From Sulfobacillus thermotolerans (GTDB lineage: Bacteria; Bacillota; Sulfobacillia; Sulfobacillales; Sulfobacillaceae), in NCBI GenBank assembly GCA_002951815.1, contig CP019454.1, positions 1,364,001-1,428,000 of the forward strand: DNA of 64,000 bases. Direction: 5' to 3'. Shown in pieces: positions 53,498 to 57,908 of this stretch. Every line of letters starts with the position of its first letter. The stretch's first letter is position 1. The translations under genes and the position numbers were made by a program. The notes under the pieces were generated by a model. That model saw nothing but the letters and a program-made list of their open reading frames with translations, did no database searches and had not been told where the DNA came from.

Positions 53498-54100
53498 CTG
53501 ACACAGGACCTCTGGGTATTGGGAGCGGGTATGCTCGTTGGCTTTCAGGGGGGAGCGGGCTTCTTTGAGCGGGGGCGTTTGTCCCACACTTTGTCCACTC
53601 TTTGGCTCTGGGGATTGGGCATGGTCGTGGTTGTGGTGCTATGGCAAACGACAGGAGATCGTGCCCCCGCCTCATTGCACGGCTGGTGGTTTGCGGCCGG
53701 TTGCATTTTAGTTTTTAAAGCCTTAGCCGATATTCAACGGCATCAAAGAATTTCCCATACCTTGTCCCATTTATGGGTTGAACCGCTCGAAGCCGTTGGC
53801 ACCCTGTGGGCCTTAGTCATCGGTTCGGGACAGGTATTGGCCGTTGTGACAGGATTTGTTGCCGGATTCGCCTTGCCGTTTGCGCTGCAAAATTGGATGA
53901 GCCCCTGGCACAGCGCACTGACGGTCTTGCGCACCATTACCTTAGGGGCCGTTGGTTTAGAAAATATTGTGGAAGCGTTAGCGCCGATGCGAGTGCACAT
54001 GGACCTCGAAGTTTTGTGGATGGTGCCGTGGCTCATTTGGTGGGAAGTTAGTGATTGGTTTTGGCGCGATTCCTCCACAACATGGCAATCCAAGCGATAA
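53498..54100 (+). CDS. Polytopic membrane protein, unknown (probable CTG start)
   Basis: 200 residues with about five hydrophobic helices and a Trp-rich end (VPWLIWWEVSDWFW). I know no family. AAGGGGGT lies in the last codons of the GH18 gene, and the codon at the correct distance is CTG 53498; TTG 53468 would give a 25-nt overlap without a site. The 3' end overlaps the convergent dedA by 53 nt. Confidence 0.6.
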   Translation: MTQDLWVLGAGMLVGFQGGAGFFERGRLSHTLSTLWLWGLGMVVVVVLWQTTGDRAPASLHGWWFAAGCILVFKALADIQRHQRISHTLSHLWVEPLEAVGTLWALVIGSGQVLAVVTGFVAGFALPFALQNWMSPWHSALTVLRTITLGAVGLENIVEALAPMRVHMDLEVLWMVPWLIWWEVSDWFWRDSSTTWQSKR

Positions 54101-54647
54101 ACAACACCACGACGACGGCACCAAAATATTGGGCTAAGTGGCCGATATTTTGCCAACGGTTGCCTAAAATATAGCCAATATAGGTAAATAAAATGGTCCA
54201 AGGCAGTGCCCCTAGCAAAGAAAAAAGGATGAATCGCCCTATTGGCATTTCCGCAACACCGGCTGGCAACGAGATATACGTGCGGATGCCGGGGAGCAAC
54301 CGCCCAAAAAATACGGCGCCATCACCATGGCGCTGAAACCAATGGTCCGCACGCTCTATTTGTTTTTGGTGTATGAGGACATAGCGGCCATATTTCTCTA
54401 TCAAAGGCCTGCCCCCGTACCGCGCGATCCAGTAGGCAAAAACTGCTCCAAAGAGCCCTCCGAGTAAACCTGCCAGCATAGCTTCCGTTAAGGTGGCGCG
54501 GTGGAGATAGACCAGATATCCGGCATACGGCAAGATAATCTCAGAAGGCACCGGGATGTATGCGCTTTCCAGAAACATGCCAATAAACACACCCATAATG
54601 CCTAAGGCAAGAATCCCATGGGTAACACTATGTAAAAGGGCCACCAC
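54048..54647 (-). CDS. DedA family membrane protein
   Basis: Second DedA in the window. FLESAYIPVPSEI, the GxxFG... YWIARYGGRPLIEKYGRY block and FFGRLLPGIRTYISLPAG are the family motifs; this one carries the GRxxPxxRTxxSxPAG sequence of the canonical DedA subgroup. GTG 54647 has AAAGGA nine bases before; a TTG at 54716 has no site. Function: probably lipid flipping. Confidence 0.88.
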   Translation of the reverse strand: MVALLHSVTHGILALGIMGVFIGMFLESAYIPVPSEIILPYAGYLVYLHRATLTEAMLAGLLGGLFGAVFAYWIARYGGRPLIEKYGRYVLIHQKQIERADHWFQRHGDGAVFFGRLLPGIRTYISLPAGVAEMPIGRFILFSLLGALPWTILFTYIGYILGNRWQNIGHLAQYFGAVVVVLFIAWIAMLWRNRAKTNH

Positions 54648-54985
54648 CGCATCTGTTCCTTTCTTCCTACCAACCGCAAGTCGGGATTCTCCCGAAGGCG
54701 GCTTGGTGGTTGTCAATTAGGCATTGTTCGTTCCCCACAACCCCGCGCGTATGCCACGGCAAAACGTCATAATAGGCGCCGGTGAAGGGCATTAGACTCA
54801 TGTCTCGCCCCCATTAGACCCCTTACACACTTAAGAGAGTCTTTGAGACATTATGATAATACCACACGCCGGAAGACAACTCCGGTGTCCACGTGCCGGG
54901 CGATCTTTTATCTGCTTTTCGCTCGGAATGCAGGCGAGCAGACACAACACGATGTCATGGCATCATTGCCCGGCGTATAAAGACC
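54648..54985. other. Gene-free region with inverted repeats
   Basis: 338 nt without a plausible gene. It lies between the 5' end of dedA and the 3' end of the nitrilase gene. Inverted repeats: ACGCCGGA with TCCGGTGT near 54877, and GCCGGGC near 54894 with GCCCGGC near 54978 enclosing an inner stem TCTGCT/AGCAGA. They could be the nitrilase operon terminator and leader structure for dedA. No known riboswitch was recognised. Confidence 0.4.
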
Positions 54986-55984
54986 TTAAAAGGGATGCTG
55001 CCAGGGACCCTTAGGAAGTTTCGGTTGACTTTTCTGGTACTCGTGCAACGCGTCTAAGTCGACATCGGCCATGACAATGCCCTCTCCGTACGCCGAGGAA
55101 GATTCAGCAACAATGCCAGTGTGGTCAGGGGTTAAAGCTGCTGGTAGATAAATGCCAGCTTTACCGCTTAAGGTAAAGCCGAATAGGGAACCTGTGCCCG
55201 CGCCTACAATCCCGCATACAGGCGTTTCTTGCACGCGCGCCCACGTGCCTCTTCGCGCTTTATGTTCGGAATAATGGGGTTCGGGATCGGCGATAGGAAC
55301 GGCGATGAGATCAGCACCCCGATGTCGTAGCATACGAAACGTCTCGAAATAAGTGGCATCATTGCATACGACCGTGTATAAGGACCAGGAGTTGGCGGTT
55401 TGGTTGACGAGGGATCCGGCGGTTACTCCCCAATCCTGTTCAAAAGCAAATAAGTGCATTTTGGGTTGTTCGGCCATGATATGGCCTTGATCCGAGATGA
55501 TTAGGGCCTGATTGACTAGCCGCTGGTTCCGGACCGTGAGTCCTGAACCCGCAACCGTAATAATCGCAAAATGGCGTGCCATATCTTGCATCACACGCTG
55601 CCAATGGTCATAGGCAATGGGTGCGAGAGTAGCAAGAGCCAAGGCTGTTTGGCTTGGATCAGGTGGACCTGGGGAGCGGGGCAGCCACCGTGCAATGATG
55701 CCAAGCAGAGGCAGTGACATATCTTCCGGGAATACGAGGATATCCGCTCTGGCTTGAGCCGCGGATTGAAAGATGGCATGAAGCCGCTTATGCCACAAAG
55801 ACGGTTCAGGCACGGCATCTAAAGAAAACTGAGCCGCGGCTATTCGCACTACAGGCCTCTCCTTTAGTCGAGGGAAGTCATGCCGTGGTGCTGTTAAAGG
55901 CGTCCAGGAACGTTGCAATGTACGGCGCAGGTGGCCAGCGAGTACGCGGAGATAGAGGTTTTTCACCCGATGGCCGATTGTCAT
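54986..55984 (-). CDS. Carbon-nitrogen hydrolase (nitrilase superfamily)
   Basis: 332 residues. The Glu87-Lys175-Cys207 triad is visible (VFPEDM, AEQPKMHLF, VVCNDATYFE), so it should hydrolyse a C-N bond (amide or nitrile). The start is the ATG in an ATGA overlap with the gene upstream; a longer frame to 56206 overlaps that gene. Last gene of a three-gene unit headed by niaR, which suggests a role in NAD/nicotinate metabolism, for instance an amidase on nicotinamide-type compounds; this is inference. Confidence 0.9.
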   Translation of the reverse strand: MTIGHRVKNLYLRVLAGHLRRTLQRSWTPLTAPRHDFPRLKERPVVRIAAAQFSLDAVPEPSLWHKRLHAIFQSAAQARADILVFPEDMSLPLLGIIARWLPRSPGPPDPSQTALALATLAPIAYDHWQRVMQDMARHFAIITVAGSGLTVRNQRLVNQALIISDQGHIMAEQPKMHLFAFEQDWGVTAGSLVNQTANSWSLYTVVCNDATYFETFRMLRHRGADLIAVPIADPEPHYSEHKARRGTWARVQETPVCGIVGAGTGSLFGFTLSGKAGIYLPAALTPDHTGIVAESSSAYGEGIVMADVDLDALHEYQKSQPKLPKGPWQHPF

Positions 55985-56568
55985 GGGGCAATCCACCAGT
56001 GCGTGCGGTAGAGATCGGGGCGCCGCCGTTGCCACAGGGGATAGCGTTCTCGAACCTCGAACACCTGAGACCATTCCCATTGGACATGGGAAGAGACGGC
56101 CGGAATAAATCCGGTGGTCGTGGGGTCCATTTCGCAGGGAACAAGAAGACCGGGGTGCGGCCACCACGTCAACGCCACGACTTGATTTTGCTGGACCTCT
56201 CGCCACAACCCGCTGCGGTAATCAGCGCGTGGAGCTTCCCCAACGACAAGGAAGAGCATGGCCCCATGATGAGCGAAATACCGACTGATTTCAGGAAATT
56301 GAAGGTGTGATTCAGCCATTAATGCGACAGACTGTTGGTGCCATTCCACGAGGAGCGGCAAGTTCGTCATGGGCTCGTGGCGCCATGTGTCGTCTTTGAT
56401 CCAAAACATCTGCTGGTCGTCCTCTATAAATAGACCCCGCTGTTCAAGAGGCCAAGGAGCCGAGATATCCGGGCAACCACGCCCCATTATCCACGCGTCA
56501 GAAGGGATTAAGGGCTCATAGAGTGCTGTGTCGAGAAAATACGCGTGTGGCATAACGTGCTCCATCAA
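55981..56568 (-). CDS. Nitrilase-like protein lacking the catalytic Cys (pseudoenzyme candidate)
   Basis: 195 residues. It resembles the C-terminal two thirds of a nitrilase: MFWIKDD (with a Lys58 where the catalytic Lys lies), ALMAESHLQFPEISRYFAHH where active enzymes have CyDxxFPExxR, and EVRERYPLWQRRRPDLY like a nitrilase C-terminus. The Cys position is Glu86, and the part with the catalytic Glu is absent, so it cannot be a normal nitrilase. ATGA overlaps on both sides tie it to niaR and the intact nitrilase. It may form a mixed complex with that enzyme. Confidence 0.65.
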   Translation of the reverse strand: MMEHVMPHAYFLDTALYEPLIPSDAWIMGRGCPDISAPWPLEQRGLFIEDDQQMFWIKDDTWRHEPMTNLPLLVEWHQQSVALMAESHLQFPEISRYFAHHGAMLFLVVGEAPRADYRSGLWREVQQNQVVALTWWPHPGLLVPCEMDPTTTGFIPAVSSHVQWEWSQVFEVRERYPLWQRRRPDLYRTHWWIAP

Positions 56569-57083
56569 CTGGGTTGCAATAAAATATGGATAGTTTGTAA
56601 TGCGTGTTTGGCGCGGGCGATGTTGTCCGGCGTGCCCTCGACCGTATGCAGGTGGACTCCATCCGTTAACTGAGACAGCAGGGCGGCACCTTGTGACTGC
56701 ATCGTTTGTAGGAAATTGTCCACGTCGTCGGACGAGGTTAAATTCAAGTTGCCTACGAGCTCACCGTATAGGGGATGGGCGACAATGACATTAAGCACCG
56801 TGACATGATGCGAAACCAGGGTGAGGAGCTCCTGTCGAACAATATGGGGGTCATCAGAGTGTTTGACTGCTAGCACTTGCCGAATACTGCCCGAAGGCTT
56901 TTCCCAAATCATATACCCCCGCGGGGTGGAGATGATGGGATGTCCTTCCGCGCGTAATAAGGCAATGTCTTGCACGACCACTTGACGGCTGACCCCTAAT
57001 GTCTGAGACAGCTCATGTCCCGCAATGGGCGTGGTACCGTTTAAATGGGCTTTAAGCCATGCCCGGCGTTCACTTCCAGTCAT
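56565..57083 (-). CDS. niaR: NiaR-type nicotinate-responsive repressor (HTH plus 3H domain)
   Basis: 172 residues. An HTH_11 domain (TPIAGHELSQTLGVSRQVVV) and the 3H domain with conserved His75 (VKHSDDP), Glu85, His103 (AHPLYGE), His144 and His146 (DGVHLHTVE). NiaR represses NAD synthesis or niacin uptake genes when nicotinate is present. First gene of the operon; ATGA overlap with the next. Divergent from the ppx-like gene with 84 nt between. Confidence 0.93.
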   Translation of the reverse strand: MTGSERRAWLKAHLNGTTPIAGHELSQTLGVSRQVVVQDIALLRAEGHPIISTPRGYMIWEKPSGSIRQVLAVKHSDDPHIVRQELLTLVSHHVTVLNVIVAHPLYGELVGNLNLTSSDDVDNFLQTMQSQGAALLSQLTDGVHLHTVEGTPDNIARAKHALQTIHILLQPS

Positions 57084-57167
57084 ACCCTATACCTGCCTTC
57101 CGAAGATAATTTGTTATAATACTGACACATTGGCGTAGTCTGAGCAATTTTTTTAAAGGGTGACAAT

Positions 57168-57908
57168 ATGCAAAGGGTAGCCGCAATGAAGATCGGGTCA
57201 ACGAGTACGAGTTTGTTAATTGCAACAGATCTGTCTCATGTGCTCATGCGCCAACAACGGTTGGTTAATATGTTTGCGGACGACCGAGAAGATGCATTAG
57301 CTGAAGTGATCACGTCTTTTACTGATAGCGCCCGCCAAACACAGTGCCATGTGATGATCGCGGCCGGGGGAGAAGCGATGCGGCGCCATCCGGATCTTGC
57401 GGTTTTAGTGAGAAAGGCGGGTTGGGATTATCATGAGGTGAGCGGTTGGCAAGAAGCTCGATTGACATGGATGGCCGTCAAAGATGCCGTCCCCCAGATG
57501 GAGTGGATTGTGGATATTGGGGGAGGCAGCACGGAATTCGCCTCGTCATCGGAGGCGTTTAGCGTTCCCGTTGGTGCCGTGCGGCAAGAATCGGTAACAT
57601 GGCCAGCCGTGGGGCGTATTCAGCACCCGGTGCTGATAGGGGGAACGGCGCAAGTCTTATCCCAGATGGTGCGAACGAACGTCATTTACGTCTCGCAGGT
57701 TGAGGCGTTATTAGCCGAATTGGCCGCGTATCCGGAACGTCTTTCGACGCTAGATGCCCTGCGTCGTCAAATTTTTCCCCAAGGATTGCAATTGGTGCGG
57801 CAACTGTTTTCAGTCTATGGATGGGATTACGTGACGTTTCATCCCCGGGGTTTTCTTGAAGGATTATGGTTAGCCGCCCATGGTGAGAGTGAGGGGTTTG
57901 CCTGGTGA
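57168..57908 (+). CDS. Ppx/GppA-like phosphatase, single-domain-size
   Basis: 246 residues of the actin-fold Ppx/GppA family: MKIGSTSTSLLIA, AAGGEAMRRH and DIGGGSTEF are the nucleotide/phosphate motifs. It is shorter than Ppx (~500 residues) but matches the two-lobe core. Starts ATG after AAAGGG. Its stop overlaps mutS by GTGA, so it is cotranscribed with repair genes. Substrate (polyphosphate or pppGpp) is not decided. Confidence 0.83.
   Translation: MQRVAAMKIGSTSTSLLIATDLSHVLMRQQRLVNMFADDREDALAEVITSFTDSARQTQCHVMIAAGGEAMRRHPDLAVLVRKAGWDYHEVSGWQEARLTWMAVKDAVPQMEWIVDIGGGSTEFASSSEAFSVPVGAVRQESVTWPAVGRIQHPVLIGGTAQVLSQMVRTNVIYVSQVEALLAELAAYPERLSTLDALRRQIFPQGLQLVRQLFSVYGWDYVTFHPRGFLEGLWLAAHGESEGFAW

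Follow-up and report, generated by a model that had tools for sequence, protein, structure and literature searches.

A conserved pairing of a nitrilase-superfamily hydrolase with a predicted dead paralogue in Sulfobacillus thermotolerans and its phylum

All known functional members of the nitrilase superfamily share an underlying dimer (PMC4700190). In the known nitrilases, this dimer is described as consisting of two active subunits of the same kind. Enzymes that are paired with a dead paralogue are known from trypanosomatids, in which AdoMetDC is paired with a so-called prozyme (PMC5201418) and deoxyhypusine synthase with a dead paralogue (PMC3663545). For nitrilases, a literature search, which mostly covered sources outside subscription journals, found no published description of a pseudoenzyme or a heteromer. 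Also relevant here is the NiaR regulon, which has been described in Bacillus and Streptococcus (PMC7713382, PMC5343564). Here, we describe a locus of Sulfobacillus thermotolerans in which a niaR gene is followed by a gene for a pseudo-nitrilase, referred to as P, and a gene for an active-type nitrilase-superfamily hydrolase, referred to as N. The locus lies in a window of 64,000 nucleotides (contig CP019454.1, positions 1,364,001 to 1,428,000), and all positions are those of the window unless stated otherwise (Table 1).

Table 1. Position of the niaR-P-N genes and neighbouring features in the window
Feature	Position	Strand	Evidence
niaR (172 aa)	56565..57083	-	HTH_11 and 3H above Pfam cut-off; PDB 7cv0
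P, pseudo-nitrilase partner, C-terminal half only	55981..56565	-	family profile against nitrilase PDB chains; Foldseek
N, active-type nitrilase-superfamily hydrolase (331 aa)	54986..55981	-	CN_hydrolase, E86-K174-C206
TGTGTCAGTATTATAACA, niaR promoter element (-10 region)	57112..57129	-	kept in 8/8 genus genomes
DedA/VTT-domain membrane protein, downstream, context	54048..54716	-	PF09335, 1e-24
Ppx/GppA-like gene, transcribed away from niaR, with mutS and mutL after it	57168..57908	+	PF02541, 1e-10

A first-pass annotation of this DNA had described three genes joined by ATGA overlaps and a middle protein of 195 residues. The P-N junction is indeed an ATGA overlap, whereas niaR and P are joined by a one-base TGATG overlap; likewise, P comprises 195 amino acids only if translation starts at the TTG at 56568, but 194 amino acids from the ATG at 56565. 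In the window genome, niaR is probably co-transcribed with the P-N pair. The DedA gene is found in the same place in genomes of the family, as seen in a synteny comparison, and the Ppx/GppA-like gene, with mutS and mutL behind it, likewise shows that the locus is syntenic. Elsewhere in the family and order, the pair occupies the same mutS/DedA locus, in several genomes behind a D-Ala-D-Ala carboxypeptidase gene.

N matches the CN_hydrolase family (1e-11, 45 bits versus a Pfam cut-off of 23.2) and shares the fold and the Glu-Lys-Cys triad of the nitrilase superfamily (PF00795). The triad, assigned by alignment and counted from the ATG at 55981, consists of E86, K174 and C206, which form invariant columns among 39 aligned sequences; the intact nitrilase of the first-pass annotation is thus confirmed, with residue numbers that were one too high. 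Glu, Lys and Cys are kept in 70 of 71 N copies, and judged by these residues, N is predicted to be a catalytically active hydrolase of the nitrilase superfamily. The nearest solved structures are those of the PH0642-type amidase/nitrilase (1j31, 3ivz), the N-carbamoylputrescine amidohydrolase (5h8i) and Nit2 (2w1v). The N-terminal 40 or so residues form a basic extension, which is conserved in N-type nitrilases. The single exceptional N copy, found in genome G160 (L152), carries Gly instead of the catalytic Cys, and both members of this pair may be dead.

The window P alone has no Pfam match. A profile built from 18 P relatives, however, matches PDB chains of the nitrilase superfamily with a best value of 1.7e-8, and a structure model of the window P, which is confident from around residue 64 to around residue 190 at its end, retrieved exclusively nitrilase-superfamily chains among the best 50 Foldseek hits (probability 1.00, best E-value 8e-6). 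Profile and Foldseek search therefore agree with the earlier proposal of a protein that resembles the C-terminal part of a nitrilase, has Glu in place of the nucleophilic Cys and lacks the N-terminal Glu segment, and structure prediction returned the nitrilase fold on which that proposal depended. The window P has lost the N-terminal half with the Glu and Lys residues altogether, so that the Glu-Lys-Cys triad is missing and the nitrilase fold is present as its C-terminal half only. This truncation is lineage-specific: P homologues encoded directly upstream of a nitrilase range from 195 to 350 amino acids, and the fold is complete in most lineages (around 250 to 350 amino acids) but reduced to around 195 to 220 amino acids in the family and order of the window genome. 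The short forms constitute one group (tree support 95), and P and N are split by a branch with a support of 99.

The triad is absent from all full-length P proteins (0/56), with Lys replaced by Gln in 54 and Cys by Gly in 39 of them. Six P sequences still carry the Cys, for which residual activity is conceivable. In five partners (L122, L127, L130, L137 and L148), Cys is retained and Glu and Lys are lost, and these possibly represent an intermediate stage. Among 56 P sequences, P87, R91, Q121 and N123 are invariant and W117 and Q124 nearly so. In the window model, the invariant residues are mainly located in or beside two helices formed by residues 87 to 95 and 115 to 123. In nitrilase structures, these two helices form the dimer surface. 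P, a dead paralogue of N, has lost the triad and kept the helix following the nucleophile position and the W..VQQNQ helix.

The trio proposed in the first-pass annotation turned out not to be conserved, the P-N pair, however, is. A survey of 41 relatives recovered P from 18 and N from 20 genomes, and the two genes are adjacent, with P first, wherever both are present. In a phylum sample of 299 genomes, in which N-type nitrilases were set apart from all other nitrilases by score, N was detected in 57 genomes from 31 families. P is located immediately upstream of N or fused to it in 54 of these 57 genomes; in the remaining three (G154, G208 and G278), N lies at the start of a contig, so that whatever gene precedes it is absent or truncated. 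N without P was thus never found where the upstream DNA is known. Because both the pairing and the gene order are conserved, P cannot be a chance open reading frame. The P distance matrix tracks that of N with r = 0.89 over 59 pairs, a value reached by 0 of 2000 permutations, and such parallel divergence is also expected from the shared vertical descent of adjacent genes. Two genomes of one genus (G132 and G305; L168 and L172) encode P beside an unrelated gene and have no detectable N. Overall, the data strongly support the idea of a nitrilase with a dead nitrilase-like partner, an arrangement that extends much further than the first-pass annotation could show.

Natural fusions of P and N, which show two CN_hydrolase stretches, are present in five genomes, four of which belong to one genus (G156, G340, G124 and G086) and one to another family (G105). 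A further candidate, G039, had been suggested by the length of its open reading frame and was left out of the count, as the two matches lie in different frames. An AlphaFold2 model of the G156 fusion (732 residues, of which 75 have a pLDDT below 50) reached a mean pLDDT of 86.7 and a pTM of 0.85. The underlying alignment comprised 19 rows, each with both domains from the same genome; 14 of these 19 were built by reading through the stop between adjacent in-frame genes, which served only as a pairing device. A pTM of 0.85 is rarely reached by two domains of undefined placement and therefore supports a defined domain arrangement; the fused pair is predicted to fold into one compact body. The basic N-terminal extension of N (residues 349 to 380 of the fusion) is confidently helical in this model.

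Taken together, P and N likely form a functional heteromer, and this is probably an obligate nitrilase-pseudonitrilase heterodimer with P as a prozyme-like subunit. P, through its putative interface residues, would stand in for the second subunit of a typical nitrilase dimer, and N would be active or stable only within the P-N heterodimer, as in the trypanosome prozymes. Activation or stabilisation of N is the role of P that we favour, with somewhat less assurance than the heterodimer itself. In the family and order of the window genome, P has been cut down to the C-terminal half, which bears the presumed interface. As in the trypanosomatid systems, a dead paralogue with lost active-site residues co-occurs with an active-type partner, the active partner has an N-terminal extension, and the two form a heterodimer, which is predicted in the case of P and N. 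Nevertheless, the enzyme families are unrelated, activation of N by P is a prediction, and P and N are a bacterial gene pair with natural fusions and a partner that has been further truncated in one lineage. Compared to the nitrilases described so far, one member of the conserved, adjacent P-N pair is dead and is predicted to associate with the active one.

Conservation, fusions and structure data apply equally to an inhibitory or sensing subunit, in which case P would bind N and hold it inactive until the old P pocket is filled by a ligand, possibly a sugar. In full-length P, the Lys position of the pocket is almost always occupied by Gln, which is compatible with ligand binding; however, the half-size P proteins lack the N-terminal half of this pocket. 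Furthermore, every N found with known upstream DNA is accompanied by P, a pattern more in keeping with a required subunit than with an inhibitor, and we regard the inhibitor as unlikely. The loss of the triad, and of half of the protein in the window lineage, could also be taken to mean that P is a decaying, functionless remnant of a tandem duplication. This is highly improbable, as the reading frames are open in sampled pairs across 31 families, and the invariant motifs, the natural fusions and the confident model of the fused protein speak against decay as well. In unsaturated comparisons, half-size P has a dN/dS of 0.10 to 0.13, which indicates purifying selection as strong as that on N; at a dN/dS of about 0.1, equal to that of N, decay was rejected.

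The prozyme-like heterodimer leaves the neighbouring niaR gene to be accounted for. NiaR itself is genuine: it matches HTH_11 (4e-13), 3H (4e-23) and PDB 7cv0 (2e-33), and alignment to 7cv0 places the metal set at H75, E85, H144 and H146, so that the complete set assigned earlier to this repressor holds. The first-pass annotation had suggested a NiaR-led C-N hydrolase step in NAD metabolism, perhaps with a regulatory dead partner. As an NAD-linked module, the pair would be under niacin-dependent repression by NiaR, N would hydrolyse nicotinamide or a nicotinamide nucleotide and the dead partner would be the regulator. The overlap and probable co-transcription of the three genes agree with such a module, and nicotinamide can bind to a nitrilase-superfamily amidase (PDB 5ny7). 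However, NiaR adjoins the pair in only 2 of 53 pair neighbourhoods, those of the window genome and of one congener. Most members of the genus, six genomes among them, carry niaR at the same mutS-Ppx/DedA locus and lack the pair; in other genera of the family, the pair is found at this locus and niaR elsewhere. In some of these other genera (L102, L106 and L109-L112), niaR adjoins a permease gene of the cytosine/purine (NCS1) type, whose product is a candidate transporter of niacin or of a nucleobase.

The operator search likewise argues against this module. The eight genomes of the genus share one niaR promoter element regardless of the presence of the pair, and this element does not match the known NiaR operator. 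In the stretch that separates niaR from the Ppx gene (57084-57167), where a NiaR box had been anticipated, no NiaR operator was found, the best match having 10 mismatches in 20 positions. A motif from the niaR promoter, TGTGTCAGTATTATARCA, was considered as an operator and rejected, as it has one exact site per genome and its other matches are at control level. A NiaR box is instead found before nadCBA: the palindrome ACACCTGTCATGACAGGTGT precedes these genes in G003, and the window genome carries a version with 2 mismatches in 20 positions at G000:C1:949783-949801, outside the window, which is its best match genome-wide. The search pattern was derived from the G003 site, so that the zero mismatches in G003 and its near relative G004 are circular; independent support comes from the position before nadCBA and from the likeness to the experimentally supported pneumococcal NiaR operator, which resembles ACACCTGTCATGACAGGTGT (PMC5343564). 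Another NiaR-type box before nadCBA is located at L277 in the window genus. As in Bacillus and Streptococcus, the window genome thus combines a NiaR protein with a matching operator, here before nadCBA; in contrast to these regulons, no operator precedes niaR and the pair, and their linkage is limited to two genomes. NiaR most likely acts on nadCBA, and its place beside the pair is probably incidental. In addition, a search of three genomes of the genus detected no NAPRTase (PF04095), and nicotinate freed from nicotinamide could therefore not enter by the NAPRTase route. Given the synteny, the rarity of the linkage and the operator search, the proposed NAD step is very unlikely.

With the prozyme-like heterodimer as the preferred reading, a clue to the substrate of N comes from other lineages, as the window genome yielded no GH125-like gene. 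Within two genes of the pair, the 53 neighbourhoods contain genes for a GH125-like protein (24), a GPH sugar symporter (11) and a PIG-L deacetylase (5); GH125-like and GPH genes were not seen in pair neighbourhoods of the window's own lineage. N is present in 39 of the 42 genomes with a GH125-like gene (Fisher 2e-31, a test that assumes independent genomes, which they are not). The GH125-like protein has 600 to 700 amino acids and shares its C-terminal part (Pfam GH125, 1.7e-22) and the catalytic motifs with the GH125 exo-alpha-1,6-mannosidases (3qt3, 2nvp): the catalytic Asp motif, PSDD or PADD, is present in all 26 proteins checked and the CES/CET Glu motif in most. Unlike the mannosidases, it has a long N-terminal region that matches no Pfam family; proteins of this architecture (L183:4970-7063 and homologues) possibly form an undescribed glycosidase subfamily. 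Because the GH125-like glycosidase and the GPH symporter accompany the pair elsewhere, N would hydrolyse a small amide originating from a glycoside or a cell wall sugar, which is the less confident step of the mechanism; a glycoside-derived amide as the substrate is rather doubtful. It is tempting to speculate, as a tentative scenario, that a phylum-wide obligate heteromeric nitrilase, with a dead subunit reduced in places to half a fold, serves an undescribed uptake and degradation of amide-glycosides together with the GH125-like protein and the GPH symporter.

P-N pairs occur in dozens of lineages. In Pfam, full-length partners score as ordinary carbon-nitrogen hydrolases despite their lost triad; since these dead proteins pass as ordinary hydrolases, N assayed by itself may appear falsely inactive. 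With a glycosidase and a symporter accompanying the pair, the substrate can be searched for directly. An enzyme inseparable from its dead counterpart provides a clean system for studying how pseudoenzymes become obligatory, and because this counterpart occurs in nature at full length, as a fusion and as a half, evolution can reveal the minimal activating unit.
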